IMG/VR virus record: IMGVR_UViG_3300044624_003021
Span: 1 to 64,000 of that record
Source: a virus
Length of the DNA: 64,000 nucleotides
Strand: one strand, 5' to 3'
Both the position numbers and the translations under genes were made by a program. Shown piece after piece: positions 1-38,639 of the stretch. The notes under the pieces were generated by a model. It made no database searches. It saw only the letters and a program-made list of their open reading frames with translations, and was not told the origin of the DNA. Position 1 is the first letter of the stretch. Each line of letters opens with the position of its first letter.

Positions 1-3000
1 TATGAAATTAACGCCTTCATAATATGAAACAAATATTATGTTGTTACTTATTGCAAAAATCGAAGTTGCATTATCAGTAGAACTAATATCAAATGTATCA
101 GAGAATGTAACATTTAATGGAGGACTTGTTAAATTATATTTAGTTATTTGGGTTGCAAAAATGTTTCCGTTAGATGTCAGATTTTTGACTGAATATAAAC
201 TATTTTCAGCCAATGTGAATTTTGTGGCCGAATTATAAATGAAATTAGGCTCCATCAAATAACTGTTTGAATTTTGTAGGTTAAACAAATACAAACTATT
301 GTTAAGAATATAATATATTGGACAATCAGGATATAAAGTTGGTATTGTTTGAGTAGGGGTTTTTGTTGGTGTTGGGGTGGGAGTTACAAAATTACAAGTT
401 ACTTGTTCATTTGTTAAAATATCAATACAATATACACAAGAGAAATTTTGTGGATAAGTAATAATTGCAAAAATCGCGGTATTATTTTCAAAATAAGATA
501 ATGGTAAGATAGTACTTTGTCCGTTACTTATGGAGGTTATAATTTGATATGTTGATGTTATTTGTATTAAATCATATCCAGATTCATTATTAACGAATCT
601 ATAATCACCTCCTGATATTTCAATATCAGAAATAGTAACACCGGTTAAACTCGGGCAATTACTTAGGACTGTTGAACTTGGAGTAAACGACGGAGTAGGA
701 GTTATTGCACTAAAACTTAATGACTTTGAACCTACAACGCTCGAACCCAACCAATAATCTAAAATTTCATATATTTCAGGCCCTCCAGTTGAGAATATTG
801 GCCCATCAGATAAAATTTTATCTATTTGAGTTTTATCCATTCCTTTTAAGAACACTCTATCTTGTTTTCCTTTTTCTCTAACTAATAATTTTACTTGGTA
901 AGTTTCTGAACACTCAGTACAACTACTATATTTTATTTTAGCATCAGTAGTATAGATTATAGTGTCTCCTGATGTAACCTCAGAACCTATGGTACCACAA
1001 ACTACTTCAGTTTTATTTACATAGGCTAAAACTATAGAACCAATTTCAGTATTTACCGGAGCATAAGTGAATCCGGTAATACCATCACAAGTCAGAAATT
1101 CATAAAGTCTTTCATTAGAACCTAAACTAACTTTAACTAAATTTTCAACAGGGGAAGTAAATGAACCTCCAAAAATCAAAGTTTTTTCTTCACAACTTTG
1201 TAACTGTGGTTGAGTTGTTAACTTTTTTACAGAAACTAATGGATTAGAACCACTTGTACTTCTACATCTAATATTTTCATTAATAAATGGGTTATCAGTT
1301 AAATTAGTACAAATTTGTCTATCTTGAGACCCTACAATTTCACTATTGTTTACGTATGTAACATTAGGCCCAACTGTTATTAATCTTTTTGTACATATTT
1401 TTTCGGTACCTACAAATTTAACGGTTTTTGTTGGGTATGAACGTAAAGGTGCATATGTTGTCAAATATTCAGGGTCTGTTATGCAACTGACATAACTTAC
1501 TATTTGAGGGGTAGTTCCACTATTATATAAGGTATAACAATCACAAGGGAAATTAAAAGTTACCTCGTTAACTGAAGTTATTCCATCTACACATGTGAAA
1601 GTAACTATAAATGTTATTGTTTGCACCCATTCAGAAAGATAACCGGTCAACCCAACATTATGAGGTATCCATGTATCTCCAGGTTCAATTCCAACATATT
1701 CAGAATTCTCACCTACTAAATACAATTGGAATCCTCCTGGTCTTTCAACCTTAATTGAAGATATGTTTTCATCCAATGGTTGCTCAAAATAAATCTTAAA
1801 TTGATTAGTTGGACCCACGTATTCAATATTAGAAACTGAATAGTTACATAAACTTCTATTTTTTGTTAAAGAAAGTACAGCATTAACCTGACCGTCAAGT
1901 GATAAATCGTTTGCAAATCCAGTATCACAAATACCTTCATTACTAATTCTTAATACGTTGTTTAATCCGCAATTATTACCATTGGTGTCTTCATAACAAT
2001 CAAAGTCACCAGTAATCACTATTTTTCCATCACAATCAGTTGTTATTGAATATGCGGAGCCATCTAAACCAGTTGTCGCTGAAAACTTGGTATCTAAAAT
2101 ACCTCTTGAATCTATTCTAACAATATTTGTTGGAATTGGTTGTTTTTTAAATGAGGTAATCCACGAACTTAGATTATCTCCTCCTCCAATAACTATTAAT
2201 GAATTATCTAATAATATTTCAATACCAGTAACATTTGGCGTCAGACCTGATAAATTAAACCCTCCTTCAAAATTGTCATATATTGTACCATCGGTATTTA
2301 ATATAATGATACCTCTAGCTGTTTGACCATTATATTGAGAGAAATTACCACCAATTATAATAGTATTATTTATATATTTTTTTATTATATTTACAGGTCC
2401 GTTAAATCCTTCACCTGAATTTTTAAAGAACTTATTATCTATTTGCCCTAAACTATTTATTTTTACAATGTTATCTGATGGTGTTTGAGTTATTGGACAT
2501 TTTCCATTAACACAATTACCAAGTAAAGTTTGAGAAATATTTGTTCCTAAAGATAATACATTTTGAACGCATAATTTTTTGGTTCCTTTAAATTTAATTT
2601 TTTTAGTTGTTGATGCACAATCAACATATGTCATACCTTGAGCCGTACTTCCGCTATTATAGAATTTATAACACTGGCAAGGTTCAGGAGGTCGAACTAA
2701 ATACGAAAAGATATTACAATCCTTCAAAGATGATGCCCCGACAAATGTTCTTTGGGGATGATGAGTTATGTTTGATTGATTGGCTGATTGTATATTATAA
2801 ACAAATGGAATAAATCCTATATTAGGGTCATTAATTTTAAATATAAACTCATTGTTAGATGGTGAGTCATAAAAATCGTTTGGATGACGCGTAAATGTAA
2901 GATACCAATAATTTTGAAAAGAAAACAACCCTCCAACTTCTAACCTAATGTCAATACCTCCATCATCTATATATTGCACAGGTGTTGTTGCTGAAAATAC

Positions 3001-5103
3001 TACACCCCCACTTACAATATCAATTTCATAAATAGTTGTATATGCGCTTTGTCCTAAAGACTCTCTCTCCGAAAAGGCGTAAACTATAGTATTATTATCT
3101 GTAACTAATACGTCAGAGTAAAATCTTGGGTTTGCGGGGTAATTAGAAAATATATCGGGATTTATACCCTCTATTGGAATTGGATTTACCGTTACATTTC
3201 CGACGCTATTTATAGGAATTTTTACAAAAGAAATATCATAGAAACTGTTAAATAATGTTGATATCAAATTTTCGCTATCAAATACTGCCAATCCTCTTCC
3301 TAAACCTACGAACTCTTCAGGCTCGGCTATGGTTATAGTTCTTACTAATTCTGAAACATCGTAGTTAGAATTTAAAATGTTATACTCATATATTGTTTTA
3401 GCATGTGTTCCAGTTCCTGGCGATTTGTAAAGTATCCAAATCTTACCTGTATTTGTATTATAATTAAAAGTATGTGCAATATCAACCGCCTGTTCACCCA
3501 CCGCTGCTTGCAAATTATTTTCGCTTTCGAATATAACTCTAGCCGTATTGGTTAAAATATTATAAGATACTATATTGAATCTTTTTTCAGCCGGGTCTCC
3601 TGGTAACACCACTCCTGGTATAGTGTTATATATGACATTTTCATGTTCTACAAACAAAATGTGTCTATCGCATGTGCTTGATTTTAAATCACCACCAACA
3701 AATATCGAATCTTTATCTGTGGATAAAATAGTTTTAACCTCTCCGCTTATATATAAATTATCTGAAAAAGTTAAATCTTGGATTCCGTTTTTGTCTAGTT
3801 TAACTAATGGACAAACCATTCTATCATTATAATAATTAAAATCTCCACCTACCAAAATACTATCACCAAATTCAACAATGGTATTTACAGAAGCTCCAGA
3901 AACTAATAAATCTTTAGTGAAACCATTTTTATTTATTATTGGTGAATTTTTAAATTGAGTGTTATTTTTATTAATATTTGCAAAATCAAATATGACTGAA
4001 CTTTCCGTATTAGTTAAAAAAGTTTCAGTATATGATGAAGTTCCATCACTTATACCGCCAAGTCTATTAACAGTTCCTGTGAAAGGATTAGACTCAATAT
4101 TTAAAACAAATTTATTCGGGTTATTCAAATAAAATTCGTAACTATATATTAAAGGTGAAGTATCATCGGCACAAGATACTGATGTTGACCACTTACCTCC
4201 ATTTTCGGCCGTTATTACAACAAAAATGAACTTAGGACCGGTACCGTCCAAATAAATAGAATTATCAATAGAGCTTCCTAAATCTGACATTCTCGTATCG
4301 GTATCATCTAATGTGAAAGTAAAATCAGGAGAGTTAGGATACAATGAGCTATAATAAACGTCAAAAGTAACCGGAAAACCTAATGATGGGTCAATTTCCG
4401 TATCCAAATAAACTAATCCTTTTGGTGTGTTTTCTTTTTGTTCACATAACTGTATTGTTGTATAAGAAATTACCGATTGATTTATATTTTGTTCAACTCC
4501 GCATTTTTCTGAATTACAAAAACAAGTATTATTAAGTACAACTTGTGGTAACTCTTCATTACAATTAACTTTTTCAAAATAAACGTAATCTCCTAAAAAT
4601 GATGTATTTGATTTATCACCTTGTCTGTAATTTATATTATAACATGTGCTTTCATAACTTTGATATGAGTCAGCATTGGTGTCAATTCTTATAATACCAG
4701 TTGTAAACTCTATTAATGGAAAGGTTTTAGTTTGTCCTATTTTAACGTTTAATCCAGTCCAACCATTTGAACCATCATATATATAAATGGTATTTTTTGT
4801 TAAGTTTTTTACATAAATTGTTGGTCCTTGGAACCCGTTTGGTCCTACTGTTACTTCGGCCAATTCTTCTGCAGGGCGGTTTGTTCTAGTTGGAGTATTT
4901 GTTGGAGTAATTCCAGAAGTTTTAGTAGGGGTTTTAGTATTAGTTGGAGTTTTAGTATTTGTAGGACTATTAGTTGGTGTTGGATTAACGAACCCGCTGC
5001 TAGGCGTTTTAGTTGGGGTTGGAGTGTTACTTGGTGTAGGTGTATTTGTTGGAAACGGGGTTAACACAAATCCCAAAGGAGGATTATAATTTTGACTTTC
5101 CAT
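1..5103 (-). CDS. Giant modular virion/adhesin-like protein, C-terminus cut by window edge
   Basis: The frame is open from the ATG at 5103 to the window edge (about 1700 residues), so the protein is partial. In order: a Thr/Pro/Asn stalk of PT-type repeats at about residues 12-65; a propeller-like segment at about 410-790 containing an IAHTFNYNTNTG motif also found in the neighbouring giant protein; a CxCYxFYNSG Cys module near 810; repeats near 875-1005 with the GGNF...NTDGTIYDNF pattern of Delta-60/DUF5122 propellers; a second Cys module near 1190 followed by a KTVKFVGTEKIC segment. There is no signal peptide, so it more likely reaches the cell surface in the virion than by secretion. A terminator separates it from the gene upstream. 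A tail fibre or adhesin role is inferred from architecture and size only. Confidence 0.75.
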   Translation of the reverse strand, partial: MESQNYNPPLGFVLTPFPTNTPTPSNTPTPTKTPSSGFVNPTPTNSPTNTKTPTNTKTPTKTSGITPTNTPTRTNRPAEELAEVTVGPNGFQGPTIYVKNLTKNTIYIYDGSNGWTGLNVKIGQTKTFPLIEFTTGIIRIDTNADSYQSYESTCYNINYRQGDKSNTSFLGDYVYFEKVNCNEELPQVVLNNTCFCNSEKCGVEQNINQSVISYTTIQLCEQKENTPKGLVYLDTEIDPSLGFPVTFDVYYSSLYPNSPDFTFTLDDTDTRMSDLGSSIDNSIYLDGTGPKFIFVVITAENGGKWSTSVSCADDTSPLIYSYEFYLNNPNKFVLNIESNPFTGTVNRLGGISDGTSSYTETFLTNTESSVIFDFANINKNNTQFKNSPIINKNGFTKDLLVSGASVNTIVEFGDSILVGGDFNYYNDRMVCPLVKLDKNGIQDLTFSDNLYISGEVKTILSTDKDSIFVGGDLKSSTCDRHILFVEHENVIYNTIPGVVLPGDPAEKRFNIVSYNILTNTARVIFESENNLQAAVGEQAVDIAHTFNYNTNTGKIWILYKSPGTGTHAKTIYEYNILNSNYDVSELVRTITIAEPEEFVGLGRGLAVFDSENLISTLFNSFYDISFVKIPINSVGNVTVNPIPIEGINPDIFSNYPANPRFYSDVLVTDNNTIVYAFSERESLGQSAYTTIYEIDIVSGGVVFSATTPVQYIDDGGIDIRLEVGGLFSFQNYWYLTFTRHPNDFYDSPSNNEFIFKINDPNIGFIPFVYNIQSANQSNITHHPQRTFVGASSLKDCNIFSYLVRPPEPCQCYKFYNSGSTAQGMTYVDCASTTKKIKFKGTKKLCVQNVLSLGTNISQTLLGNCVNGKCPITQTPSDNIVKINSLGQIDNKFFKNSGEGFNGPVNIIKKYINNTIIIGGNFSQYNGQTARGIIILNTDGTIYDNFEGGFNLSGLTPNVTGIEILLDNSLIVIGGGDNLSSWITSFKKQPIPTNIVRIDSRGILDTKFSATTGLDGSAYSITTDCDGKIVITGDFDCYEDTNGNNCGLNNVLRISNEGICDTGFANDLSLDGQVNAVLSLTKNRSLCNYSVSNIEYVGPTNQFKIYFEQPLDENISSIKVERPGGFQLYLVGENSEYVGIEPGDTWIPHNVGLTGYLSEWVQTITFIVTFTCVDGITSVNEVTFNFPCDCYTLYNSGTTPQIVSYVSCITDPEYLTTYAPLRSYPTKTVKFVGTEKICTKRLITVGPNVTYVNNSEIVGSQDRQICTNLTDNPFINENIRCRSTSGSNPLVSVKKLTTQPQLQSCEEKTLIFGGSFTSPVENLVKVSLGSNERLYEFLTCDGITGFTYAPVNTEIGSIVLAYVNKTEVVCGTIGSEVTSGDTIIYTTDAKIKYSSCTECSETYQVKLLVREKGKQDRVFLKGMDKTQIDKILSDGPIFSTGGPEIYEILDYWLGSSVVGSKSLSFSAITPTPSFTPSSTVLSNCPSLTGVTISDIEISGGDYRFVNNESGYDLIQITSTYQIITSISNGQSTILPLSYFENNTAIFAIITYPQNFSCVYCIDILTNEQVTCNFVTPTPTPTKTPTQTIPTLYPDCPIYYILNNSLYLFNLQNSNSYLMEPNFIYNSATKFTLAENSLYSVKNLTSNGNIFATQITKYNLTSPPLNVTFSDTFDISSTDNATSIFAISNNIIFVSYYEGVNFI

Positions 5104-5224: not shown

Positions 5225-8200
5225 TCAATATACATAGTTTGGGTCACTAAAAGTTACCACACCATTTACGTAGGTAAGAATCAAAATTGGTGTGTTTTGC
5301 CATATACCATTAACTATAGGATAAGCGTAAATGTTAAAATCTACTGTGTTACTATCTATAATCTCAAGTCTATATTTATACATATAGTAATCAACTATAT
5401 TGGGGAAATACGTATTAAACATTCCTACAAAATTAGTGCAAGTTGTTGAAGAAAATTCAGGTAAACTTTCATTTTGAGAATAGAATGGCAATGTGGCATT
5501 ACTGATTAAATTAGTATCAAACAAACCTGCTATATTATAAGAAACCCGTGGATTACATGACGTTAGATAAACACGTCTTGAGGTAGTGAATGGTGATTCA
5601 AATATTGCTCCTGTTTGTGAAGTAAATTGAACATCGTCACTGTAATATGAATTATTTATAAAATTAATGATATTAATACCAAAATTAGGTGAAGTAGAAC
5701 AAGTGAATGTATTTGATTCTAAAAATCCATAGTTCTCAATTTTTAAATAAAACTCTAAACCATCCATTGTTCCTGTAGTTACTACAGCTGAAACGTGGAT
5801 TTGGAATTTTAAAGCCGTGTCGGTAGTATTGCCAACAGTACCTGTTGAACCTCCAGTATCTCCCCCAAGAATTTCCCCACATAAAGTATTACCTGATGCG
5901 GTAGGAATACCAAATTCAATACTTCTATAATATCTATAATCTGTTGGGTCAGAATATGATGGTATACCATTGATTGACGTTCCTCCACTAAATGGACAAG
6001 TCTGCCCAACAACACCTGGAAAATCTTGATTACAATCCATATATCCGCAATATGAGATTTCATTCATCGCATTTAAGTATGATTGGTACATATAATCGAT
6101 TGGAATATTGGAGTTTGAGGTGACCTCGATAATCCAATAATCACCGTCAACATATTTGTTATAAGATATTGTGCTAGTTTGAGATAATGAAAGACAATTA
6201 TATGGTTGATTTCCAGGATTTAATTGTATGGTTTTTAAACCATCTAAAGTTAATTGTTCATTACCTCCAAATAAAACTGTGTCATTTGGTGGAAAATTAC
6301 ATAACGCATAACCTTTAGGACCCGTGTAAGGCGAAAACGCATATGGATAATAATTGAAAAGTGTCTGAGGTATTGATACTGTAGAACAGTCTTCATCACA
6401 CACTTTTATACCCAAAACAACTTTACTATAACAAGATGCTGAAAAATCTATAGGTTGATTATTACCATCATATGAGGTTGTACTTATACTACTTGAATCA
6501 ATTTTATACTTGTTTTCAATTTCCTGATTTTGAGGACAATTTTCACAATCAAATGTTTCCATACAATCATATTTTAAAATCCAATTGCTCGCACCTGATG
6601 GGGAGGTAATTTGGAAAATAATATTTTCAAACCCTGGACTTCTTAATAAACCAGTTAATGACGTGACTTTACTAAAAGATGGGGCGGCAACGTCTATTTC
6701 GTAATTTGTCCACATTGTTCCCATTGGAATCAGGGTACTACCTATGTTAAAATTGGCTAAAATAACTGGTTGTGTGTAGTTATTTCCATTATATATAATC
6801 TTAATATTATCATAAGCCGCAAATCCTGTGAATGCCCAAGCAATATGATTAACTGTAGATGGTAGAGACAAACAAGTTTGGAACGGTGGTGTTTGAGTTC
6901 CTACAATCGCACCATCGAATGAAAATTCATATGAATAAATAGGGTCATCAGAATTTCCATTTAAACAATCAGCACATGTAACTTCAATTGATTCAAAACA
7001 AGACAAGTTTGTGGCAATACTACCATTTGACCCATCTTGTGAATAAATAACACCACCTAAGTTGATTCTATCAATCACAGGTAAATATTCCCCTGATAAT
7101 ACAATTGGAGATTGTTCACCTGTTAATGGATGAGGATAATCATAAATAAATTGATTTCCTAAACCGCTGGTAAACGCAATTTCTGTTGTACTATTTGGTC
7201 CGTACCAATTAATAACATAATCTGAAATATTACCCTGACATGTCGACAATAAGTTGCCGGCTACTATGTAACCTATGTTACCGGTTTCAATTATGTCAAA
7301 ATAAAAACCACATTCTTCACACAAATCAGTAGTTAAAGCTATAGGTTCGCATAGTTGTAAAGATTCGGCGGTTGAATTTATTGAAGAAACTCCGTGAGGT
7401 CCAGTAACTCCATTGAATGTTAATCCTTGGTAGACAGAAGAAACACCATTTGGGAACGAAGTTTCATATTCAAATACAGACCAGTTAGTGTTTTCATTTC
7501 TAATCAAATAAACACCATTTTCCATTGTCATTGGGAAGTGCGAAACTGCGGGTTGGGTATAATTAGGACCTATTTCTTGAATCAACGATGGTGTAGCCCC
7601 AATCACATATGGATATTCTAAAATATACATTGGTGACGCTGAGACTAAAGTACTACCGTATTTTGCGGTGATAATCAGGCTATTATCCATAAAATACATA
7701 CCTGACCAAACAAGTAAGTTAGTAGTTCCATTGTAATTCACACTTCCAACAACCGGAAGATTAAACATCACAGTACAGTTAGTAAACGTAATGCTATTAT
7801 TTGTAATATTAACTTGTAAAATAACCCCTCTACAAGACGCTGTTGGACAACCGGCCCATCCTCCACCTACTATTGCTCCCATGGCAAGTGTGTTTGGAGA
7901 GATATACGCCATACCTTGGTCAATTCTTGAAATCACTCCGTTATTATTTGAAGTATTAAGTGTGATTAATCTACTCCAAGTTAAATTATAGTATTCATCA
8001 TTAATTGTCCATTCATTTATATACGTAACATTAGTGTTGGCGACTTTCTTAATCCATAAAAATCCGGTATTTGTTATAAAATCAAATGAATGTGCAATAT
8101 CTAATGTTTCAACTAAAGAGCCTAATCCTAAAATATTAGGATTGTAACTAGTACCTAAATTTAAGAAAGTAGGTTCTCCAAGACCTAATGCGTATCTTGA

Positions 8201-11200
8201 TACTCTTAATCTATGTGTTTGACTAGTAGGCGCCAACCATAACATCAAAGGATTACACAGTGATTGGAATGAGAAAGATGAACAGGATGGAGAGCTGGCC
8301 GCACCTGACACTCTACCCAAACCAGTGTCGGAATAAACCGATGTGGTATTACCATATATGTCAACTTCATAAATGTCAGACACATTTGATGAATTACTTG
8401 CATATGACGCGGCAATGTACAATCTATTTTGGTCGGTTAAAAATAAATCAATTCCACTACCGTAATCGGTTGACTCAGGAAAATTAAAAATAGTCACAGT
8501 TTCTTCAATCACCGCGTTAGTAAAACTACCATCCAAATAAATTTGTTTAATCATCCATCTAGTAGGATTAGTTACACCATAACCAATCAACATTCTATTA
8601 TTATTTACAACCGCAATATCCGTTGGGCTTTCATCGACGGGTAAAGTCAAAATAGCCGGAGTTATGAATTGCTGACTCACAGTATCAAATCTTCTAATAG
8701 ACCATGTGTTAGAATTTGAAGGTCTGGTTGATAAAAACACATTGAGTCCGTCCTCACTTACCCCTAATGCCGCAGCAAATAGTCCAGGGTTTCCATTAAC
8801 AAGTGGTTCTGGATTTTGTAGAGTTACTGAGGTTGGGTTTGGAGTTATAACAAATCCTGATATGAAATCAACATTCCACCATGTTAATCTTACATCAGTT
8901 GTTTGATTACTACCATGTAATAAATAAAGTCTTTGACTTACTGAATTATAGGCAATATCCCAAAATCTATCATTTGTAATAGTAGGTATATTTGGTAACT
9001 CAATTTCAATTGACTCATTATCATTAACATTATAATAAAAAACCCTGTTAGGATTTAAATCATTATTATCGGCTCTTGTGACAAAAAACACAGGACAAGT
9101 AGGTAATATAGTTGTTACTATTAAATTTGGTGTAAAAGTTAATGGATTACACAAGGCTATCGCTTCAGGACTTGAGTTTATTGAAGACGCTCCAAAAGGT
9201 CCTCGTCCGTTTGGGGGAGTCCAAAATTCATCAATATTTGAGCCAGTGACAAGGTAATTAGTTGGACTAAATAAAAGTTGACTGAAAGCATTTCCAAAAC
9301 CAGGAGCATTATTTGTTAATCTTATTGACCTTATTTCGTCTAAGAATGTTGCAATAAAATTTGTAACACCATTTCCCGGATTCTGAGGGTCAGGATATGG
9401 GAAATATACTTCAGGGAATGCAAAAAAGTTAGGATTTGTACTTTGGACGTACTCATATTGTAAAAGATATTTTATACCCGTCTGAGACAAATTGGTAGAA
9501 TCTCTAGCAAATATTACTAATTTATTATCAGGACCTAAATAAAAATTACTATAAATAACAGTTGAGCGTGTTCCGGTATATATCGAATCTCCTTGTGCCG
9601 GTAATCTGAACATTAATGTCATATTATTCACCAAAGATAAGTTATTACCTAATGCCGGAGTAATATCCAACTGACCAATAAACTCACGGTAATTCTGCTG
9701 ATTATTATAGGGGCCAGTACCACCTGACCAAGTTTCAATTATCAAGGTATTTCTGTCTAATGAAGCAATTCCAAGGTTGTGTCTAAAAGTAGTACCTGAT
9801 GCAGAAACGTTAATTACTCTATTAAAAGTTAAATTAAAATCTTCATCATCAATACTCCATTCGTATATTTGAAAATTAACATTAGTAATTGCGGGGGTTG
9901 GTCTACGACTAATCCACATCCAACCTGTGTTAAAATTGAAATCAAAAATGTGAGTAATTGACATACTTCTCTGTACAGAATTTCCAGGTGCCGGATATGT
10001 ATTTCCTAAGTCTAAAACTTGTTGCGGGTCCTCTGTTTCTCCATCCCATCTAATTGCGACAAATTGATTATTACCTGAAAATAATATTAACGGTCTACAT
10101 CTTGGGTCAGGGAATTCAAATTCAAATGAGTGACATGATGGATAAGATGCCGCCCCATTAATTGTTTGTAAATTAGTGTTATTCCACGATTGAGTTATTG
10201 TTAAATCAACATCAATTTTAAAAACTGAAGATGTACTATTTTGACTAGCAACTACATAAAATTCACTAACTCCTTCATTTAAACTTAAGAAAATATCCAA
10301 AGATTCATAAACATCAGGACCAAATTCAATTTCATTGTCAAAAATAGTGCCCTCTGGACTATCGTCACAAGTCCATTGTTCTATGTATATAGTTGTTCCG
10401 TCAGTTGTTGAAATAAATAATTTATCATTATTAGTTCTTATAAAATCACCTTTAACTCTTCTTCCATTTGTAAAGCTTATCAATTCTGTATAGTAGTTGA
10501 ATTGGCTAGTGTTGAAAACATCGTAAATTAGTACTCTTGGAGTTTGAGGTTCTCCGGGGATTGGAACTGTAGATAGGTATATTAAATTACCGTTAGGGCT
10601 AACTTCTAATCCTTCGCTAAGTCTAAGAGCTCCAAATGTTACTGGTGAAGGTAGTTGTATTAGGAACGGACCATCAATTAACTGTCCGGTCTCAAAATCA
10701 ACATTCCACCATATTAAATTATTGTCCCATGGAGATGATGGATTGGGTTGAGGTAAATCACTTAATGTTTGTAAAACATATAATCTATTATTAGTATTAC
10801 AAACCGCAACATCTCTATAGCTATAGATAGTTTCCGCAACATCTCCAAGCTGAGGTAATAAAATAAAGTTATGTGTATTATTTGTGACGTTATAATTCCA
10901 AAGACCCTCCAATCCTGAAGAATTCAAAAATACAGGGCAATTACTTAAAGTAGGAATGACCGGCGCTATATTTGGTACAAATCTAGTTAATTCACATTGA
11001 ATTTGGCTAGGTACAGTTACATTAATTGTTGAGGACGCTCTTAAAGCAGTATTAAAAAGTGGTGATAAAGTATATTGAGTTTGAGGTATGTCCAAATAAC
11101 CAGAAATACCATAGTTTGGCTCATTATTGAGTATATAACCGCCCCAATTCTGGTTAGCCCCAATATTCTGATTTCTATGTACAAAAATAAAATTATTATA

Positions 11201-14200
11201 GTTAACAACTCCAATTTGTTGTACATTATCACTAGTGGCGTTGCCATTTCCTTCGGCGTCTAATATAGTATTGATATATTCATATTGTGCATCTATTGCG
11301 TATGGGTATTGTAAAATGACTCTTGTTAAATTTATATTACTGCTTTCAGGTAATCCACTTCTCACAATTACAATTAATTTATTATCTACAGCATAATCCA
11401 TTGATTGAATAATTGCATTTCTCGGTAAAGTGTACCCTGGAGACCCTGCTGTAGGTAATGTAAACATAGTAGTTGTATTTGCGTTAAAAGTTAAATTCAA
11501 ATTCACATTACCAGGTGTTAAATTAAGTTGTACAATTCTGGACCTAAGAGCTGCGCTACTTGTCCCATATCCATTGCGGGTACCAATTATTAAAGTATTA
11601 TCATCAATTGCCGCTAATCCGGCAAAGAAACGAAGACTCGTAATTGCTTGATTGGTCTGCGTCAAAGTAATTTGTCTGTTATAAGTACCAATAAAATCTA
11701 TTTCACCATTAGGTAATGTTGTACCGTTTAAAGTAAATTCCCATATTGTTGTTACCCAAATTGATGATTGTGTGTTAAATAGAATCCATAATAAACCTGT
11801 ATTTGTTTCATAGTCAAATGTATGGGCAATTTCATTGGGTCCTACAGTAGGTACGGGGTGAGTTCCTAAATTTAAAGTGCTTATAGGTTGGAATGGTAAG
11901 AAGTTGAATCTGGATACAAAAAAGGTATTACTTAACCCTGAAAATAAAAGTAATGGTCTACATCTTGGGTCAGGATAAATAAAACTAAATGAATTACACT
12001 CAGGGAATGTGGCAGCTCCGTTAAATAATCCACCATATGTAGCATAATTGGTAAGATTAGTTATACTATCAACCGGCTCTAATCCATAAGGATAATCACT
12101 AATTACTTTATAAACAGGTATATTAAATTGATTATTATCTATACAAAATAACGAACCGTCTAATATATATAAATCTATTTGATTATCTCCGTCGGCGCTT
12201 AAACCTGTTACAATTTCAAACTCGAAAAGAGACCCCTCAGGTGTTCCATCGGTATGCCATTGTTCAATGAATACACGTTCACCATCTGTTGTTGTAATAA
12301 ATAATTTATTATCAGTAGTTCTACACATATCCCCTTGAACTCTTCTTCCTGGTAATAAATCAAATAATCTCTCACAAGGACATACTTGGGTAAGGATAGT
12401 ATCCTGACCAGAGTCAATAATTTCACATCTTAGAATTGATTGTACATCATCAAGTTCAGAATAGTTCATTGAGCTTACAAAAACATGGAATCCGTCCAAA
12501 TCAACTTCTAATCCATGGTTAACCGTAAAAAAATCATACGGGTCTTGGAAAGGTAAATCAGGGGTTACATTAATTGTTGCCCCTGATACGTAAGTTCCGG
12601 TTTGGAAATTAATAGTAAAATACCCAATATAACTGGCGGGATATGGTCCAACTTGATTTGTTTGATAGGTACCATTTGTTTTGAAATAAACTCTCTGAGA
12701 TGTTCTTGAAATTGCTATGTCGGTATAGGTATCCCCACTTGAATCCGCATTATTAAATATGTATGGACCTTGTAGTGAAATTGGTATTAAACTACCTTGA
12801 TTGGTGTCATATAAGAATATATCAAATTCGTCTGTAGATGAATTTAACATTACTATACAACCTTCAATCGGAGGTAATGGGTCAGGTAAAAGACGAGCTA
12901 AACAATATGCGTTATTTGCTGTACATGGACCTCTGTCTGTAATACTACTTTGAGATGATGTATTTATGATAGAAGTCATACATACAGTTCCTTGAACAGT
13001 AACCGACGGACCGTAATTATTCGTAATAAATCTATAATTACCATCACAATCTAAAAATTCGACAGTTAGATTATTACCTATTTTAAGTTCAAAACATGTA
13101 CAAGGAAAAACAGTGGGTTCAATACAATACTGAGAATTTGAAAGACCGCAAAATTCATTGGTATCCTCAACATAAGCATATTGTTCATTAGTACCTATCC
13201 CTGGTTGGTCAACAAAACTAAAATTATCATTTAGAATACAAGGGAATAAAGGATTTTGGCCAACAAAAGAACTATGTGGACTACCACTACAATCTCTCCA
13301 AGAAAATAAGAACCAAGTACTCTGAGGAGGATTTAGTCCTGCGTTTGTGTGACGTACTTCGTAACAAGTACAATCAGGGGCTGGTTCGGTTTGGATTGCA
13401 CAAATATTACTAATAGAAATTGGTATATTAGCAACACAATCTTCATGTGCCTGAAATCTTAGTAGTGTACTTGTTGCTACTAATGTAGTGGTAAATCTTT
13501 GGTATCCTCCGGAACCAAATGTACTAGTTGGAGTAAAAAATTCAGACCCATTAGAACCTGCAAAAACTCTAACCCATCTTTGCCCAGGAAATACAGTACA
13601 AGTGCCACCAAAATCGGTAAAAAATACAGGAAGTGATAAGTCAAAAGAAATTTCATAGGTTGCCCCAATAACCAAGCAGTTTTGTTGAAGATAATTATTT
13701 AAATCACCTCCCGTATATAGCGCGGCCGAGCCAAATGTACTATTATTACCAACTGTCTGCCATAGTGTTGAAGTTTGTCCGACTCCATTAACTGACTCCC
13801 ATGAAGGTATGGTTGTATTCGGTATTCCTTGAACTAAAAATTGTGGGTTAGCAACTACGTTATTTTCTTGACAAACCGCTATTGGGGAACATCCCTCAAC
13901 CCAACTGAAATCGTCTCCACAAACCCAATGAGAATTGGAGTCATCGGTTAATTTTCCGCACCACCCATCTACACTTATTGTTGTTACACTTGTTGGAGAT
14001 AGTTCGTTACTTAAACCACTGTTAACATTGGTTAATTCAAATAAATTGTTTCCATTAGAACTATCGATTCCTGCCAATATTGTAAATGTTCCAGTTGTAG
14101 AACCATTTACAGTTCTAGCAACTCGTATTCTTACTGCATCATTAATATTTAATTGAACGTTTTCAAATATACTTTCAGTTTCAAAATTAACTAAAGCGGT

Positions 14201-17200
14201 TGAAGGTCCATAAGTAAATGAGTCGTATAATACTCCATTAACAAAAAGACCCACAGTTAGGAAATTATTGTTCTGTTGAGACACGAATACAAATCTTGCT
14301 CTAAACGTATAATCACCATTTCCTGGCGAGGTATATACTCCAGTTGTAGGATTATATCCATTATAGTAATCAAAACTCTCCGTATTAAACGTAAAATCTG
14401 TCCATATATTAGGTTGTGCAATTTGTAAATTTTGAGCAACATTTCTGTAAGCTCTGAAGGATAATGGTTCTGCAAAATATGGATTAGAAGGTAAATCAGG
14501 AGACTCATTAGCACTCCAAACCGCACAAAAAGTATATTCATTCGACGGTAATACTGTTATAGTCACTTCTTCTGATAAATTATCACATTTTGTGTAATTT
14601 AAATAATTCACATTTTGTGATTGATTTGTCACGGTAATACATCTACAACAAAAACCTTGACCTCCACCCAAGAAATTTTTATAACCACCCTCAACACGGA
14701 CAATTAAAGATTCCCCATTTTCGGTATATCCGGTTGAAATTTTTCTAATATACGTATCGTTATCCGTAGTAAGTCCATCACCAACGGTTGAGATAAACAA
14801 ACCTGATGAACTTATTGATGAAGGAATATCCTCAGGTAAAATTAAATCTCCTGAATTACTTCCTTGTTCAAATGTTAAATAAGAATTTGTTCCTAAATAA
14901 ACTGTAGATATTTTTGTACCATAAGCATTCAAAGTGAACCCTTCAGGTAAATCTAGTTGAACAAAACTATTAGTTGGTTGTCCGTCATAAATTTCATTCA
15001 AGTCGGTTTTATTCACCGGTGAAAATGCTAAATAAGAAATTGTTGGTTTGTATGAATAAAAAACGTTAGAATAAATACTGTTATCAAATAGTATTGATGA
15101 TAAATTTTCAAAATTCATTAATAACGTGGTTGCGCTTGTTGGTAAATAAGACACATTACTATATGATGATTGGGTTATTGTTAAGGGAGTTGTTTGTGGT
15201 GTGAATTCACCAGTATAAACTGCAATTTTACAAATTCTAAGGTTACTAATATAGGCATCTAAATTAGTTGTCTTATCATAATTAGTTCCAATGTAGAATG
15301 ACGTGCCTGTTGTTGCGGTAATAGAATCTGTAATACCTGTGGTTACAATTGAATCTTGTTTTCCGTTAACATATAGGAAAATATCTCCTGAATTTCTAAC
15401 TATTGCAATATGAACCCATTGATATATATTAATCTGACTTTCAAAATTAATTACATTTTCGTTATACGTAAAATTAAGTTGACATAGTCCTGTAAATGAT
15501 AATTCCCACCCTTGGGTATTTGATGAATCATAAAAAGAAATAATCGAAGGATTTTCTAAGTTTGTACTACTATAATTTAGCCAAAATTCTACAGTGAAAT
15601 CTGAATCAAAATTAAACCCTTCGCTAAAGTCTGTATAAATGTAATTACCGTTATATAACGATAAACTACCTCCGTTATTTGAATTAAAATTAAGAACTAA
15701 TTCACCTTCAGGACTCATTTTTAAAATGTTTCCCGCACTATACAAAGAACCATTATTCACTTGTACTAAACCGTCTCCCCCAACTAATATTGACCCATCA
15801 TTTAATTGAGTAATCGTATTAATTTGAGATGTTGTGTATGAGTTATCTTTAAATGTTTCGTCAATACCGCTATTATTTATATAATTTGAACACTCATAAC
15901 AGTTTTCAAAAACTTTTGTACTAAATATTTCTGTAGTAACTCCTGATATTTCAGAATAATCACCTGAGGTTACGGCGTTTAAAACTTTCTTACATTTTGA
16001 TTCTCCAGTAGGTAAACTTATTATTTGTCCATATTTCTCAAAATATTGGTGACTTAATATCACACTTGTTGAACCGTTAACACAATCCTCAACTAAATAA
16101 TAGACACCTTTAGATTCAACCACTTGTTGGAACGAATCGTATGGTAAATAATTGACTTTTACTGGTATACTTGAGTTGATGCTTTTTCTAATAAATAAAC
16201 TAGAATTTCTACATTTGATATCTTCATTTATAAATGGTTGGTCGGTTAAATTAGAACATACCACACCTTCAGTTTCGGTATTATCTACATATGTAATATT
16301 TGACCCAACGTTTATTAATCTTTTAGCACATATTTTTTTGGTACCTACAAATTTTAGAGTTTTTACAGGATAAGTTTCTGTAAAAAATTCAGTAGTTACA
16401 CAACTGACATAAGTCACAGATTGTGCCGTGGCTCCGCTATTATTTAAAGTATAACAATTACACGGAAAATTAAAAGTAACTTCGTTAAATGTTGTAGTTC
16501 CATCAGTACATGTAAATGTTACATTAAAAGTTATGGTTTGTACCCATGTATCAGGATTCTGTAAAGGAACATTAAATGGTATACTAGTATATCCTGGTGC
16601 TATATTCAATGACTCAGATTCGGAATTAAGGGTATATGTATTAGTGACAATTTGATAATACCCCATAGGTGCCGCAACATTAATGGTGTATATATTGGTA
16701 TTTAAAGGTTGGTTAAAATGAATTATAAATGTGTAAAACGGACCCACGTATTCAATATTAGAAACTGAATAATCACAAGCCTTACTTCCAAACTTATATG
16801 GAAAAGTTTCAGTTATAATTGCTGGAGAATTTATAAATTTAGTAGTTCCAGAATCGTCATAAACTATGTTTACTCCTAAAACATCTCCCTTTTTAAATCT
16901 ACTATCGGCAATCAAATTTAAACTACTTAAATCAGGTTTTGTAATACCTGATACCGTAACAACTTGAGTATTGGCAGAAAGACATAAGTCACAATCAACA
17001 TACTTTGAAGCAACGTCAGTGTAATGAGTTGCAGCACTTGATGTTGATGCTGTGATATAAACCGCACAACTACGACTATTAGGTTCTTCAATAGGGTAGA
17101 TTAAATAAGGTGCGTCTAAGCTCAATTCTTCATTTGAACCTACCACATAGGTTAATGGGTTTCCTGAGAGGTCAAGTTGAAAACAGTCCTCGAAATCATA

Positions 17201-17221
17201 ATAATAAATAAAAGGGTCCAT
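5225..17221 (-). CDS. 3998-aa multidomain giant protein (LamG and triple propeller-like repeats)
   Basis: One uninterrupted frame of 3998 codons. The N-terminal third has Cys modules (CNCYTLNNSG...QSVTYVSC) and a KTLKFVGTKKIC segment nearly matching the neighbouring partial protein. A LamG/concanavalin-like domain sits at about residues 530-680 (FTVEFWLNY, WVHIAIVRN, LYVNG). Three tandem repeats of roughly 600 residues follow at about 1457-2090, 2100-2710 and 2715-3290. Each opens with (I/C)(V/P)(M/V)(L/F), carries DPRCRPL-type or CNPLMLW motifs and a HTFDYETNTGLLWI-type motif, and reads like a beta-propeller. The rest is Cys-rich beta-type sequence. There is no signal peptide or obvious membrane segment. 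It is probably a virion-attached receptor- or glycan-binding adhesin, by analogy with giant fibre proteins; no enzymatic motif was recognised. Confidence 0.85.
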   Translation of the reverse strand: MDPFIYYYDFEDCFQLDLSGNPLTYVVGSNEELSLDAPYLIYPIEEPNSRSCAVYITASTSSAATHYTDVASKYVDCDLCLSANTQVVTVSGITKPDLSSLNLIADSRFKKGDVLGVNIVYDDSGTTKFINSPAIITETFPYKFGSKACDYSVSNIEYVGPFYTFIIHFNQPLNTNIYTINVAAPMGYYQIVTNTYTLNSESESLNIAPGYTSIPFNVPLQNPDTWVQTITFNVTFTCTDGTTTFNEVTFNFPCNCYTLNNSGATAQSVTYVSCVTTEFFTETYPVKTLKFVGTKKICAKRLINVGSNITYVDNTETEGVVCSNLTDQPFINEDIKCRNSSLFIRKSINSSIPVKVNYLPYDSFQQVVESKGVYYLVEDCVNGSTSVILSHQYFEKYGQIISLPTGESKCKKVLNAVTSGDYSEISGVTTEIFSTKVFENCYECSNYINNSGIDETFKDNSYTTSQINTITQLNDGSILVGGDGLVQVNNGSLYSAGNILKMSPEGELVLNFNSNNGGSLSLYNGNYIYTDFSEGFNFDSDFTVEFWLNYSSTNLENPSIISFYDSSNTQGWELSFTGLCQLNFTYNENVINFESQINIYQWVHIAIVRNSGDIFLYVNGKQDSIVTTGITDSITATTGTSFYIGTNYDKTTNLDAYISNLRICKIAVYTGEFTPQTTPLTITQSSYSNVSYLPTSATTLLMNFENLSSILFDNSIYSNVFYSYKPTISYLAFSPVNKTDLNEIYDGQPTNSFVQLDLPEGFTLNAYGTKISTVYLGTNSYLTFEQGSNSGDLILPEDIPSSISSSGLFISTVGDGLTTDNDTYIRKISTGYTENGESLIVRVEGGYKNFLGGGQGFCCRCITVTNQSQNVNYLNYTKCDNLSEEVTITVLPSNEYTFCAVWSANESPDLPSNPYFAEPLSFRAYRNVAQNLQIAQPNIWTDFTFNTESFDYYNGYNPTTGVYTSPGNGDYTFRARFVFVSQQNNNFLTVGLFVNGVLYDSFTYGPSTALVNFETESIFENVQLNINDAVRIRVARTVNGSTTGTFTILAGIDSSNGNNLFELTNVNSGLSNELSPTSVTTISVDGWCGKLTDDSNSHWVCGDDFSWVEGCSPIAVCQENNVVANPQFLVQGIPNTTIPSWESVNGVGQTSTLWQTVGNNSTFGSAALYTGGDLNNYLQQNCLVIGATYEISFDLSLPVFFTDFGGTCTVFPGQRWVRVFAGSNGSEFFTPTSTFGSGGYQRFTTTLVATSTLLRFQAHEDCVANIPISISNICAIQTEPAPDCTCYEVRHTNAGLNPPQSTWFLFSWRDCSGSPHSSFVGQNPLFPCILNDNFSFVDQPGIGTNEQYAYVEDTNEFCGLSNSQYCIEPTVFPCTCFELKIGNNLTVEFLDCDGNYRFITNNYGPSVTVQGTVCMTSIINTSSQSSITDRGPCTANNAYCLARLLPDPLPPIEGCIVMLNSSTDEFDIFLYDTNQGSLIPISLQGPYIFNNADSSGDTYTDIAISRTSQRVYFKTNGTYQTNQVGPYPASYIGYFTINFQTGTYVSGATINVTPDLPFQDPYDFFTVNHGLEVDLDGFHVFVSSMNYSELDDVQSILRCEIIDSGQDTILTQVCPCERLFDLLPGRRVQGDMCRTTDNKLFITTTDGERVFIEQWHTDGTPEGSLFEFEIVTGLSADGDNQIDLYILDGSLFCIDNNQFNIPVYKVISDYPYGLEPVDSITNLTNYATYGGLFNGAATFPECNSFSFIYPDPRCRPLLLFSGLSNTFFVSRFNFLPFQPISTLNLGTHPVPTVGPNEIAHTFDYETNTGLLWILFNTQSSIWVTTIWEFTLNGTTLPNGEIDFIGTYNRQITLTQTNQAITSLRFFAGLAAIDDNTLIIGTRNGYGTSSAALRSRIVQLNLTPGNVNLNLTFNANTTTMFTLPTAGSPGYTLPRNAIIQSMDYAVDNKLIVIVRSGLPESSNINLTRVILQYPYAIDAQYEYINTILDAEGNGNATSDNVQQIGVVNYNNFIFVHRNQNIGANQNWGGYILNNEPNYGISGYLDIPQTQYTLSPLFNTALRASSTINVTVPSQIQCELTRFVPNIAPVIPTLSNCPVFLNSSGLEGLWNYNVTNNTHNFILLPQLGDVAETIYSYRDVAVCNTNNRLYVLQTLSDLPQPNPSSPWDNNLIWWNVDFETGQLIDGPFLIQLPSPVTFGALRLSEGLEVSPNGNLIYLSTVPIPGEPQTPRVLIYDVFNTSQFNYYTELISFTNGRRVKGDFIRTNNDKLFISTTDGTTIYIEQWTCDDSPEGTIFDNEIEFGPDVYESLDIFLSLNEGVSEFYVVASQNSTSSVFKIDVDLTITQSWNNTNLQTINGAASYPSCHSFEFEFPDPRCRPLILFSGNNQFVAIRWDGETEDPQQVLDLGNTYPAPGNSVQRSMSITHIFDFNFNTGWMWISRRPTPAITNVNFQIYEWSIDDEDFNLTFNRVINVSASGTTFRHNLGIASLDRNTLIIETWSGGTGPYNNQQNYREFIGQLDITPALGNNLSLVNNMTLMFRLPAQGDSIYTGTRSTVIYSNFYLGPDNKLVIFARDSTNLSQTGIKYLLQYEYVQSTNPNFFAFPEVYFPYPDPQNPGNGVTNFIATFLDEIRSIRLTNNAPGFGNAFSQLLFSPTNYLVTGSNIDEFWTPPNGRGPFGASSINSSPEAIALCNPLTFTPNLIVTTILPTCPVFFVTRADNNDLNPNRVFYYNVNDNESIEIELPNIPTITNDRFWDIAYNSVSQRLYLLHGSNQTTDVRLTWWNVDFISGFVITPNPTSVTLQNPEPLVNGNPGLFAAALGVSEDGLNVFLSTRPSNSNTWSIRRFDTVSQQFITPAILTLPVDESPTDIAVVNNNRMLIGYGVTNPTRWMIKQIYLDGSFTNAVIEETVTIFNFPESTDYGSGIDLFLTDQNRLYIAASYASNSSNVSDIYEVDIYGNTTSVYSDTGLGRVSGAASSPSCSSFSFQSLCNPLMLWLAPTSQTHRLRVSRYALGLGEPTFLNLGTSYNPNILGLGSLVETLDIAHSFDFITNTGFLWIKKVANTNVTYINEWTINDEYYNLTWSRLITLNTSNNNGVISRIDQGMAYISPNTLAMGAIVGGGWAGCPTASCRGVILQVNITNNSITFTNCTVMFNLPVVGSVNYNGTTNLLVWSGMYFMDNSLIITAKYGSTLVSASPMYILEYPYVIGATPSLIQEIGPNYTQPAVSHFPMTMENGVYLIRNENTNWSVFEYETSFPNGVSSVYQGLTFNGVTGPHGVSSINSTAESLQLCEPIALTTDLCEECGFYFDIIETGNIGYIVAGNLLSTCQGNISDYVINWYGPNSTTEIAFTSGLGNQFIYDYPHPLTGEQSPIVLSGEYLPVIDRINLGGVIYSQDGSNGSIATNLSCFESIEVTCADCLNGNSDDPIYSYEFSFDGAIVGTQTPPFQTCLSLPSTVNHIAWAFTGFAAYDNIKIIYNGNNYTQPVILANFNIGSTLIPMGTMWTNYEIDVAAPSFSKVTSLTGLLRSPGFENIIFQITSPSGASNWILKYDCMETFDCENCPQNQEIENKYKIDSSSISTTSYDGNNQPIDFSASCYSKVVLGIKVCDEDCSTVSIPQTLFNYYPYAFSPYTGPKGYALCNFPPNDTVLFGGNEQLTLDGLKTIQLNPGNQPYNCLSLSQTSTISYNKYVDGDYWIIEVTSNSNIPIDYMYQSYLNAMNEISYCGYMDCNQDFPGVVGQTCPFSGGTSINGIPSYSDPTDYRYYRSIEFGIPTASGNTLCGEILGGDTGGSTGTVGNTTDTALKFQIHVSAVVTTGTMDGLEFYLKIENYGFLESNTFTCSTSPNFGINIINFINNSYYSDDVQFTSQTGAIFESPFTTSRRVYLTSCNPRVSYNIAGLFDTNLISNATLPFYSQNESLPEFSSTTCTNFVGMFNTYFPNIVDYYMYKYRLEIIDSNTVDFNIYAYPIVNGIWQNTPILILTYVNGVVTFSDPNYVY

Positions 17222-17302: not shown

Positions 17303-19627
17303 TTAGTTTACAGAAATCTTTTTAATTTCTACCGTTCCATCAGAGTAATGAATGTGAATTACATTAAGTCCCTTTTCAAGTATTGCTTCATCAATACTAC
17401 CGTACCTAATTGGTTTTTCATATAAATTACTAAACTGTCTAACTTCAACAAATTTAACTTCAGGTGCATCAATAACCTCGTCATTGTTAACCGCAGTTGC
17501 AAGTCTTGTTACCGTACATTCAACTTGGTTATTTGCAAGGTTTTCATCACCTGCACCACCATTTACAGTAAGAATTCTTACTCTGAAAGTGTTTGTTGAA
17601 CCGAGTGGTAGAGCACAACTGTTTGTACTAAAACATACAGATGCCGATAAATAAGACACGCCTAATCGGTTTGTAGGTAATCCTCCACCTGGTAAATAAA
17701 TGAATTGACCTGGAAGTAATGGACCTTGCCAAGAACCTGGAAAACCTCCATTTGCAGGCATAGGCCAAGTTCTAGGTGCTTCAGGAATATTCACCCACAT
17801 TCTGTCCCAAGTAAATGATGTAATTGGAACTGTACCTGTATTTGTAACCTTCCATTGGAAAGTAATTTGAGTTTGTGTTGGTGAAATTGTTGCAGTTGGT
17901 GTTGACGGGATAGTCAGAGCAACTGATAAGTCACCACCTGATACAACAGGTTGAGTAACATTGAAACTTGTTTGTCTTGTATTATCATTTGTATTAGTTT
18001 CAGATATAGTACCCATATAATTAACTCTACTTATAATATATCTGAGTCCTGTAATGTTACCAACATTATAAGTTATTGTCTCAACGTCAGTTGCAACTCC
18101 ACCACCAAGATTGCCACTTGTTGTTCCTATAACAATATCATCAGAGTCACCCCAAGTTGTGTTGGTTGATAATCTGTGTTGAGTCATTACATTCACCGAT
18201 GGATATGTAGGATTTTGTGTCGCGACATTTGCAGTAATTGTAATATTAGAACCTACTGTAACCGCCGCAGGACTTACAGTTAAAGTATTAATTACAAAGT
18301 TATGAATGAGCGTCGGAGGAGGTGGAGGAGGAATTACACCACCTGGGTTTGGTGTTAGATTAATCGCATCTTTTAAATTAATTCTTCCATAACCAAGTTC
18401 ATTACTTCTTGTTGATAACGGCCAAGTAGGATTGTTAGAGTAAACATATCCACCTACTTTTTCAGCCGATTGAGCTAGTATCTGTAGTACTTGGTCGTCA
18501 GTAAGTTCCCAATTCTTGTAGAATACAAAAGCCGCAGCGGCTGCCGTAATAGGACAAGAGAATGAGGTTCCGTTTATAGAAGTGTAGTCACCTGCGTTAT
18601 AACCCGCAGCTCCCAATCTATCAGTAGTTCTAATACCAACACCAGGTGCCGATATGTCACAAATTTGACCGAAGTTAGAGAAACTTGCTCTAACATCTGA
18701 TTGTGATGTTGCCCCAATTCCCCATACAGCTGGGTAATTAGCCGGATATTGATTTGCAGTACCTGAAGCTCCATTTCCTGATGATGCTACTACCACCATA
18801 CCTTTTCCACCTCTTGCGGTTGTTCTTGCCGCCTGAAACGAAGCGTCAAGAGCCGCAGAGTATGATGACCCACCATAAGACATTGCAATTGCAACACAAG
18901 TTGGATTAGCCATCGCAGCATTTACACCATTAATCTGAATTACGTCCGATGTTCGGAAACTACCTCCAGCAAAAACTTCGGACATAATGTTAACCGGCAT
19001 TACCTTTACTTTGTTGTTACCAACACTACTAACACCAATACCATTATTTGTAACGGCCGCAATAGTTCCCGAACAAGTTGTTCCGTGTTTGTCCTCAGCG
19101 TTTACATAAGGAATATTTGTTGTGCTATTAACCGCATTGAATGGACTGTTTGTATTCCCAACGAGGTCAGGAATAGTTAAATCCAATCCTCCGTCGAACA
19201 TTGCAACACTAACAAATGGATTGTTTGCCGGAACTAAGTCCCATGCTTCATCGGCATCAATATCTTTATCAGTAGACTGACGTAGATGCCAACAAGATGC
19301 AAATTCAGCGTCGTTTGGAAGATAGTCCAACTTCATTTCTCTTGTCTCATCCTTGTAAAGATTTTGTACGAAACTTAAACTTTTGTTTCGATTAATAAAT
19401 TCGTCTTGGCTCGCACCATTCGGAATCAGGACAACATACCACCCAAGTTGGTCGAACTCGACAACAACTTTTGTATCACCTTGGTTAAAGTGATTTTTTG
19501 CTTGTAGTTCCATTCCTTTTTTTGGAACCACAATAATTTGTCTTTCAATATTCTTGGATAAGTCATATTGACCGTATCCGAGAATAAAGGATAGACAAAG
19601 TGTAAGTAATAAAACGATTTTTTTCAT
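17303..19627 (-). CDS. Secreted subtilisin-like serine protease (S8)
   Basis: 774 aa with a signal peptide (MKKIVLLLTLCLSFILGYG, then Gln at +1). The S8 triad is visible: Asp in VAMFDGGLDL near residue 144, His in EDKHGTTCSG near 180, Ser in NGTSFSCP near 355, plus the oxyanion-type ASSGN segment. After a Pro-rich linker come CARDB-like beta domains (LTVSPAAVTVGSNITI; LSVALTIPSTPTATIS). The C-terminus (GLNVIHIHYSDGTVEIKKISVN region) resembles the last strands of Bacteroidota sorting domains but lacks their PNP motif, so I do not call it T9SS cargo. It is followed 26 nt upstream by the secreted nuclease gene in the same direction. It would be exported to the periplasm or beyond, perhaps to degrade host surface or competitor proteins; the target is unknown. 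Confidence 0.9.
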   Translation of the reverse strand: MKKIVLLLTLCLSFILGYGQYDLSKNIERQIIVVPKKGMELQAKNHFNQGDTKVVVEFDQLGWYVVLIPNGASQDEFINRNKSLSFVQNLYKDETREMKLDYLPNDAEFASCWHLRQSTDKDIDADEAWDLVPANNPFVSVAMFDGGLDLTIPDLVGNTNSPFNAVNSTTNIPYVNAEDKHGTTCSGTIAAVTNNGIGVSSVGNNKVKVMPVNIMSEVFAGGSFRTSDVIQINGVNAAMANPTCVAIAMSYGGSSYSAALDASFQAARTTARGGKGMVVVASSGNGASGTANQYPANYPAVWGIGATSQSDVRASFSNFGQICDISAPGVGIRTTDRLGAAGYNAGDYTSINGTSFSCPITAAAAAFVFYKNWELTDDQVLQILAQSAEKVGGYVYSNNPTWPLSTRSNELGYGRINLKDAINLTPNPGGVIPPPPPPTLIHNFVINTLTVSPAAVTVGSNITITANVATQNPTYPSVNVMTQHRLSTNTTWGDSDDIVIGTTSGNLGGGVATDVETITYNVGNITGLRYIISRVNYMGTISETNTNDNTRQTSFNVTQPVVSGGDLSVALTIPSTPTATISPTQTQITFQWKVTNTGTVPITSFTWDRMWVNIPEAPRTWPMPANGGFPGSWQGPLLPGQFIYLPGGGLPTNRLGVSYLSASVCFSTNSCALPLGSTNTFRVRILTVNGGAGDENLANNQVECTVTRLATAVNNDEVIDAPEVKFVEVRQFSNLYEKPIRYGSIDEAILEKGLNVIHIHYSDGTVEIKKISVN

Positions 19628-38248: not shown

Positions 38249-38262
38249 AATCCCCTTTTTTT
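38234..38262. terminator. Terminator shared by convergent genes
   Basis: GGGGA/TCCCC stem with GTAAAA loop and long A and T runs; it covers the end of the Clp gene and faces the minus-strand gene at 38262. Confidence 0.75.
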
Positions 38263-38639
38263 TATTTTAGTGTTTGTGAAGTTAATTTTTCGATTTTGTC
38301 AATCGCATTTGCATATGACGTAAAATAATTTACCGCATCGTCTATTTCATTTTCTAAGTCGAACTTACTTTGTGCGGGCATTTTCGAGGCCTGAACCTTA
38401 CCTTTTAAATCGGAAAGTTGGGTCATTATTCTTGTATTCGGCTCGTCTAATTTTTTTAGTTTACGAGTAAGATTTCTTAAATTACTTGTGTATTTGTAGT
38501 AATCATAACCATATCCTCTCCATACACCTTTCAATCCTTGATACACGTCACTTATACCTTCTTGAGTTTCTTGTTCTTCAATAACTCTCTTAACTATTTT
38601 TTCTAAATCGGATTCTGTTAATCTTATAACTTTTCCCAT
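38262..38639 (-). CDS. Unknown helical protein with RLTESDLxxIVKRV N-terminus
   Basis: 125 aa, all-helical with heptad-like spacing. The N-terminus MGKVIRLTESDLEKIVKRV is a short motif I have seen on many unrelated proteins of large T4-like phages; LTE followed by S fits a T4 gp21-type site, so it may be a capsid-targeting peptide. The rest is a coiled-coil (LRNLTRKLKKLDEPNTRI, DAVNYFTSYANAIDKIEKL). A virion internal protein is the inference. An ATATTTAT motif precedes it at 38653-38660. Confidence 0.65.
   Translation of the reverse strand: MGKVIRLTESDLEKIVKRVIEEQETQEGISDVYQGLKGVWRGYGYDYYKYTSNLRNLTRKLKKLDEPNTRIMTQLSDLKGKVQASKMPAQSKFDLENEIDDAVNYFTSYANAIDKIEKLTSQTLK

Follow-up and report, generated by a model that had tools for sequence, protein, structure and literature searches.

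A giant protein of a T4-like phage carries six abutting predicted beta-propellers with paired terminal cysteines and may be a modular adhesin

What is a phage protein of 3998 residues built of, when three stretches of it resemble one another, and what might it be used for? The question is raised by a single ATG-start open reading frame (ORF) at 5225..17221 (−) of a window of 64,000 nucleotides, the start of the 81,665-base virus record IMGVR_UViG_3300044624_003021. An initial annotation had pointed out the ORF and a triple repeat in it, and both are confirmed, the ORF by its listing and the repeat at residues ~1450–3300 of the product, P0001, which is identical in a further locus (L002). In a dot-plot-type check, comparison of overlapping 300-aa fragments of P0001 with one another by BLASTP gave clear off-diagonals at a step of ~620 aa, with copies 24–38% identical (best E 6e-40); the units align as 1454–2085, 2092–2700, and 2706–3300, at 33% identity to the middle one. 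Copies so far diverged are not assembly duplicates and, the identical protein being present on a second contig as well, misassembly was rejected as the source of the repeat. The two motifs said to mark the units are less regular than had been claimed: (D/N)PxxxPL is exact in two of the three and deviates in the third (DPRCRPL, DPRCRPL, SLCNPL), and HTFDY(E/N)TNTG is exact in one, the others reading HIFDFNFNTG and HSFDFITNTG and the version of a neighbouring giant protein HTFNYNTNTG.

The step and the homology of the three ~600-residue repeats thus stand, but the true unit is smaller. Each copy consists of two homologous domains, an A part of ~280 aa and a B part of ~320 aa (~280–330 aa overall), and the reading as three copies of one ~600-aa domain was rejected. 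An iterated profile seeded with the A domains only finds six family domains, predicted below to be beta-propellers, that tile P0001 from 1450 to 3300 head to tail with gaps of at most about 5 aa, all on the (−) strand: A1 (aa 1450–1748, 11978..12874, E 2.6e-62), B1 (aa 1749–2085, 10967..11977, E 1.1e-52), A2 (aa 2088–2369, 10115..10960), B2 (aa 2370–2702, 9116..10114), A3 (aa 2703–2985, 8267..9115), and B3 (aa 2986–3300, 7322..8266). This profile recruited first the propellers of three more giant proteins encoded by this phage, then a second domain of the neighbouring protein and, weakly, that protein's B domain, and was stable at 22 domains, A1–B3 included, once loci of three other phages had been added. 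That A and B might be unrelated to each other was rejected on a profile of 11 domains taken only from other phages, which matches both types: A1 at 2e-13, A2 at 1.5e-9, and B2 at 3e-4, together with the A and B domains of the neighbour at 8e-17 and 2e-5. The values for B1 (only 0.097) and B3 (0.28) are noise, the best shuffled or reversed decoy reaching 0.037, and A3 has no match below E 1 to this profile. In the reverse search, a B-only profile found one other-phage domain at 3e-4 and the propeller of a 1064-aa protein at 0.83. Against homology, direct comparison of the A and B profiles (4+4 domains) with hhalign returned a probability of just 9.4%; as this comparison is not significant, the homology of the A and B domains rests on intermediates, their shared layout, and the two structural models.

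The domains also have a pair of terminal cysteines in common. With Cys counted within the first 15 and last 22 residues of 77 non-redundant family domains, fixed windows find both in 69/77; the N-terminal Cys of the neighbour's B domain falls just before the profile boundary and that domain was counted as having both, which gives 70 of 77 with both, 7 with neither, and none with a single one. Random interior windows of equal sizes contain Cys in both in 1.4% of draws, and the Fisher value for the co-occurrence is 4e-10, a figure that overstates independence because the domains are related. Within P0001, residues 1754 and 2076 are the only Cys in B1 and residues 2709 and 2980 the only ones in A3, and B2, with its pair at 2375 and 2691, is likewise without further Cys. 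Joint loss of both residues is what a disulfide predicts, and the pattern suggests that the pair is the signature of a clasp in which the two cysteines would be bonded.

A beta-propeller is a ring of antiparallel beta-sheet blades closed by pairing of its N- and C-terminal strands, and a protein may have this fold without resembling any known propeller family in sequence. Structure prediction with AF2, run on A2 (7-row alignment; pLDDT 73.3, pTM 0.79) and B2 (55-row alignment; pLDDT 77.2, pTM 0.84), gave beta-propellers in both cases, and the listed structural matches of the models (Foldseek, VIA-align) are propellers nearly throughout; at this moderate mean pLDDT of 73–77, we regard the array domains as predicted beta-propellers. 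The DSSP strand lists, as we read them, suggest five blades, the C-terminal strand completing blade 1, with some uncertainty in the number. The best VIA-align match of B2 is the receptor-binding protein (RBP) of the S. aureus phage 80alpha (Z 15.2, 246 aligned, 3.7 Å), followed by that of phi11, also a phage of S. aureus (Z 14.8, 241 aligned, 3.8 Å) and E. coli YjiK (Z 14.2), with others at 12.6 or below. The two RBPs are absent among the listed matches of A2, whose top ones are an endo-levanase (Z 14.5), paraoxonase, and LRP-type propellers; nor is the phi11 RBP among 16 PDB profile matches up to E 10, and the likeness is one of fold, without detected sequence homology. The PDB profile search of the family mainly returned repetitive designed propellers (Pizza6, E 1.8e-5), and these and other WD40-type matches were given no weight as support for the fold because an unrelated 487-aa control alignment likewise matches repetitive WD-40 chains (E 3e-9).

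Since the endo-levanase is joined by GH43 enzymes among the top structural matches, one might take the propellers for glycan-degrading enzymes (GH32/43-like) and P0001 for an array of depolymerases. The 55-row family alignment holds no invariant acidic residue, and indeed no invariant column at all, and none of the 55 members matches Pfam or the PHROGs at E ≤ 0.01, which makes an enzymatic role very improbable. The same lack of an invariant residue means that the alignment marks no shared binding site.

The repeated duplication within the gene that had been proposed from the letters is supported by a maximum-likelihood tree of the 77 family domains, in which A1–A3 form one clade and B1–B3 another (100/98 each). 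The B copy of the neighbour adjoins B1–B3 (89/78), and constraining it together with them raised the likelihood of a quick tree; a joint grouping of A with B has weak support (87/5). In the multi-propeller proteins of three other loci (L159, L130, L155), many domains cluster by position across phages, and the separate A and B clades within P0001, set against this positionwise grouping, therefore support a duplication of A–B pairs particular to this lineage and, judging by sequence divergence, old. The array would have arisen by duplication of such pairs inside the gene.

Sharing of modules with the neighbouring giant protein, P0002, is supported as well. The window holds the first 1701 of its 2668 aa (1..5103 (−), an ORF cut by the contig end), and the remainder comes from another contig, IMGVR_UViG_3300042555_002820, for which a comparison across 27,221 bases gave 99.99% identity. 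The earlier description of this neighbour, a single related copy with the same Cys modules, holds for the B-type copy (aa 477–805, 2689..3675 (−), by profile) and for the Cys module but misses an A-type copy (aa 1589–1852), which starts at 1..339 (−) and continues past the window; doubtful by simple alignment, the latter was accepted only on its profile match (E 2e-7 before inclusion). The Cys-rich module, of 190 aa, lies at aa 149–341 of P0001 (16199..16777 (−)) and 1086–1284 of P0002, with 57% identity (E 3e-64). Further along P0002, residues 2493–2605 match gp120 of Cellulophaga phage phi19:3, labelled a structural protein, a label that is itself "based on similarity".

P0001 has more parts on either side of the array. 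Its N-terminal domain (aa 1–139, 16805..17221 (−)) is 79% identical in L003, and its profile matches genes that relatives carry in this same region, of 1244 aa in L012/L109 (E 4e-9), 1252 aa in L042 (E 3e-8), and 590 aa in L112 (E 1.6e-4). A LamG (concanavalin-like) domain at aa 526–667 (15221..15646 (−); PF13385, E 2.5e-18, above cut-off) has phage structural and baseplate proteins among its matches, alongside others, and a weak C1q-like jelly roll may lie at aa 937–1043 (14093..14413 (−); PF00386, E 0.015, below the Pfam cut-off). The C-terminal module (aa 3301–3998, 5228..7321 (−)) corresponds to genes that stand alone elsewhere: aa 3275–3935 match a separate 737-aa gene in L129/L176 (E 5e-35) and aa 3300–3996 a separate 732-aa gene in L139 (E 3e-33). 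In L139 the matching gene immediately follows a gene with a single propeller; in L129 it lies two genes further on from such a gene. P0001 may have recruited parts that other phages encode separately.

The gene lies on the same strand as, and directly downstream of, a T4-like major capsid protein (MCP; 20460..22325 (−), phrog_138, E 2.3e-66), a DNA/RNA non-specific endonuclease (19654..20229 (−), PF01223, E 2.6e-24), and a subtilase (S8; 17303..19627 (−), PF00082, E 4.6e-31), that is, in a virion structural gene cluster; the capsid, portal, and terminase of this phage are all T4-like. Subtilase and endonuclease, which here lie between the capsid gene and the giant gene, are kept in relatives, with matches at 10 and 9 loci. 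The locus is hypervariable: upstream, the DNA is 94% identical to that of L003, whereas starting inside the subtilase gene, part of which has no counterpart there, identity drops to 79% or no match is left, and the stretches downstream of the MCP in 17 relatives contain no ORF longer than 1244 aa. By capsid, the nearest isolates are Flavobacterium phage immuto and Microcystis phage Mel-JY01, at 41–43%. A DnaK encoded on the record has its best matches in Flavobacteriales and other Bacteroidota, being 71–80% identical to the 80 loci listed, of which 79 are titled with Bacteroidota taxa by our reading of the titles, and the host is probably a member of the Flavobacteriales or a Flavobacteria-like bacterium. 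The part of the record that holds it (64001–81665, L001) also carries genes resembling FKBP, NusG, an asparagine synthetase-like enzyme, a PAS histidine kinase, and a response regulator, identities read from sequence by eye, with a database search for DnaK alone.

From the gene context and from domains common to proteins annotated as structural, we infer that P0001 is part of the virion, and its position after MCP, nuclease, and subtilase fits a head or neck fibre equally well. It could then be a fibre on the capsid or neck surface by which the virion adheres to glycans in its environment, such as algal mucilage or biofilm, instead of to the infection receptor; LamG domains and propellers alike are folds of general use in glycan binding, and the other giant single-propeller proteins with Thr/Pro linkers, ~40 kb away, could serve as tail fibres. 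We nevertheless hold this to be rather unlikely, as B2 matches RBPs best and the N-terminal domain occurs in relatives' genes that adjoin a conserved three-gene run with a possible baseplate function. The conserved 487-, 537-, and 637-aa genes have weak PHROG matches, one of seven for the 537-aa gene reading "baseplate protein" (E 0.0058), and the 637- and 537-aa genes have no match among isolate phages.

How widely such propellers occur bears on a further reading, in which they bind nothing. A scan of IMG/VR with a 5-row alignment found the family at 49 loci, this phage's own included; besides P0001 and its neighbour, the phage has propellers in three more giant ORFs (1064, 1232, and 2098 aa, ~40 kb away). 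The 65 propeller-bearing ORFs, some of them cut, reduce to 42 distinct groups, of which three belong to this phage, and repeat number compared across these ranges from one to seven copies per ORF: 1 (26 groups), 2 (8), 3 (2), 4 (2), 5 (2), and 7 (2). Thr/Pro-rich windows are found in 34 of the 42 groups, and P0001 has none; the longest abutting run elsewhere is two propellers (3/42 groups) versus six here, and the linker-free fusion of six is unique among the family ORFs seen. The propellers might be a passive spacer that lengthens or stiffens a fibre whose binding parts are the LamG, C1q-like, or C-terminal domains: their linker-free end-to-end packing and crosslinked ends would suit a mechanical role, and they have diverged strongly without a conserved site. 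Elsewhere, however, propellers are single or sit between Thr/Pro linkers, where stiffening makes little sense, and we give the spacer reading only a small chance.

Of 24 other propeller records compared, three, including contigs of 322 and 308 kb, encode an MCP 79–83% identical to that of this phage, and a fourth one that is 49% identical over part; the other 20, many of which are fragments, have no such match. Direct scans with the A or B profiles found this phage's own contig only, as did the B-type and A-type profiles on the relatives' whole records (1/37 each); a wider A profile gave 0/22 on relatives' records, an empty answer that by itself is uninformative. No match to the array or to a compact family member was found in a collection of phage isolates, and a one-pattern scan of bacterial and archaeal genomes gave 18 pattern matches, none confirmed as a propeller domain. 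In each of two giant ORFs of this phage (L096 5253–8951 and 8965–15261), a single propeller and Thr/Pro linkers occur together with an M12-like metallopeptidase domain, which PF13688 matches at E 2e-10 in the larger ORF and, short of the cut-off, at 5e-5 in the smaller one. Propeller proteins at L139 7463–10717 and L171 6921–10409 have repeats (PF13573, E 6e-18 and 1.6e-10) of SprB, a gliding adhesin of Flavobacterium, possibly a capture of host adhesin parts; a conserved ~1000-aa gene beside them has no PDB match. In L140 (8762–15778), a phage protein with four propellers has a Fib_succ_major domain as well (PF09603, E 1.5e-36).

Taking these results together, we think it rather probable that P0001 serves this T4-like phage as a giant modular adhesin exposed on the virion, with propellers that would bind host glycans. 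The N-terminal third, with its LamG jelly roll and Cys modules, would attach the protein and add lectin-like domains, followed by a rod of six disulfide-clasped propellers and, at the end, the C-terminal module of ~700 aa. Each propeller may have a pocket or a face to which glycans of the host surface bind, by analogy with phi11 Gp45, whose five-bladed propeller cavity has been proposed to bind the GlcNAc of wall teichoic acid (PMC4901313), and if each does so, binding by the array would be multivalent and diversified. The receptor-binding diversification suggested in the initial annotation is plausible given the fold match of B2 and the hypervariable locus.

Phage RBPs with propellers and Bacteroidetes phages with tandem lectin-like repeats are already known; the unnamed propeller family, its terminal Cys pair, and the linker-free six-propeller array are new, searches of open-access full text, with subscription literature mostly outside their scope, having found no prior description of family or array. 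The closest parallel in fold, phi11 Gp45 and 80alpha gp61, is likewise a phage-encoded five-bladed propeller (PMC4901313, PMC7048315), but forms a trimer, with a coiled-coil stem and tower domains, in which each chain has a single propeller, against six per chain in P0001; no sequence relation to it was detected, and a terminal Cys pair is not described in the passages cited from those papers. PMC4901313 also names phiKZ gp131 and PRD1 P2 as putative RBPs with propellers, a likeness by description alone and with a single propeller domain each. BACON repeats of crAss-like phages are tandem carbohydrate-binding-type domains of tail-associated proteins in Bacteroidetes phages, sequentially duplicated in one lineage (PMC6949934); likened by description alone, they are a different domain family. 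DUF5122 (PF17164) propeller repeats occur in the neighbour (E 4.7e-7) and recur in the N-terminal-domain-bearing proteins of L012 (1244 aa, E 7e-106) and L042, yet none of the 55 members of the P0001 family matches them.

More tentatively, and with doubts prevailing, we propose that a phage-specific superfamily of clasped propellers serves as an interchangeable lectin cassette, usually mounted on Thr/Pro linkers and here fused without them into a six-propeller rod that would read several host glycans together; its bearers would be large environmental phages, many of them probably of Bacteroidota. The family provides a searchable domain for many unannotated giant phage proteins, connects this array architecture with a fold that phage receptor-binding proteins are known to use, and allows tests, across dozens of contigs, of how copy number and the exchange of modules bear on host recognition. 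Several unrelated proteins, finally, open with a similar N-terminal tag, e.g., MGKVIRLTESDLEKIVKRV or MSKIIRLTESDLKRII; a pattern scan places it in ORFs at 38262–38639 (−) of the window, 318–722, 1323–1853, and 4843–5883 of L001, and 8089–8592 of L094. The pattern is present in 6 of 193 ORFs versus one at a shifted control position, and our guess is that it is a targeting or packaging tag.
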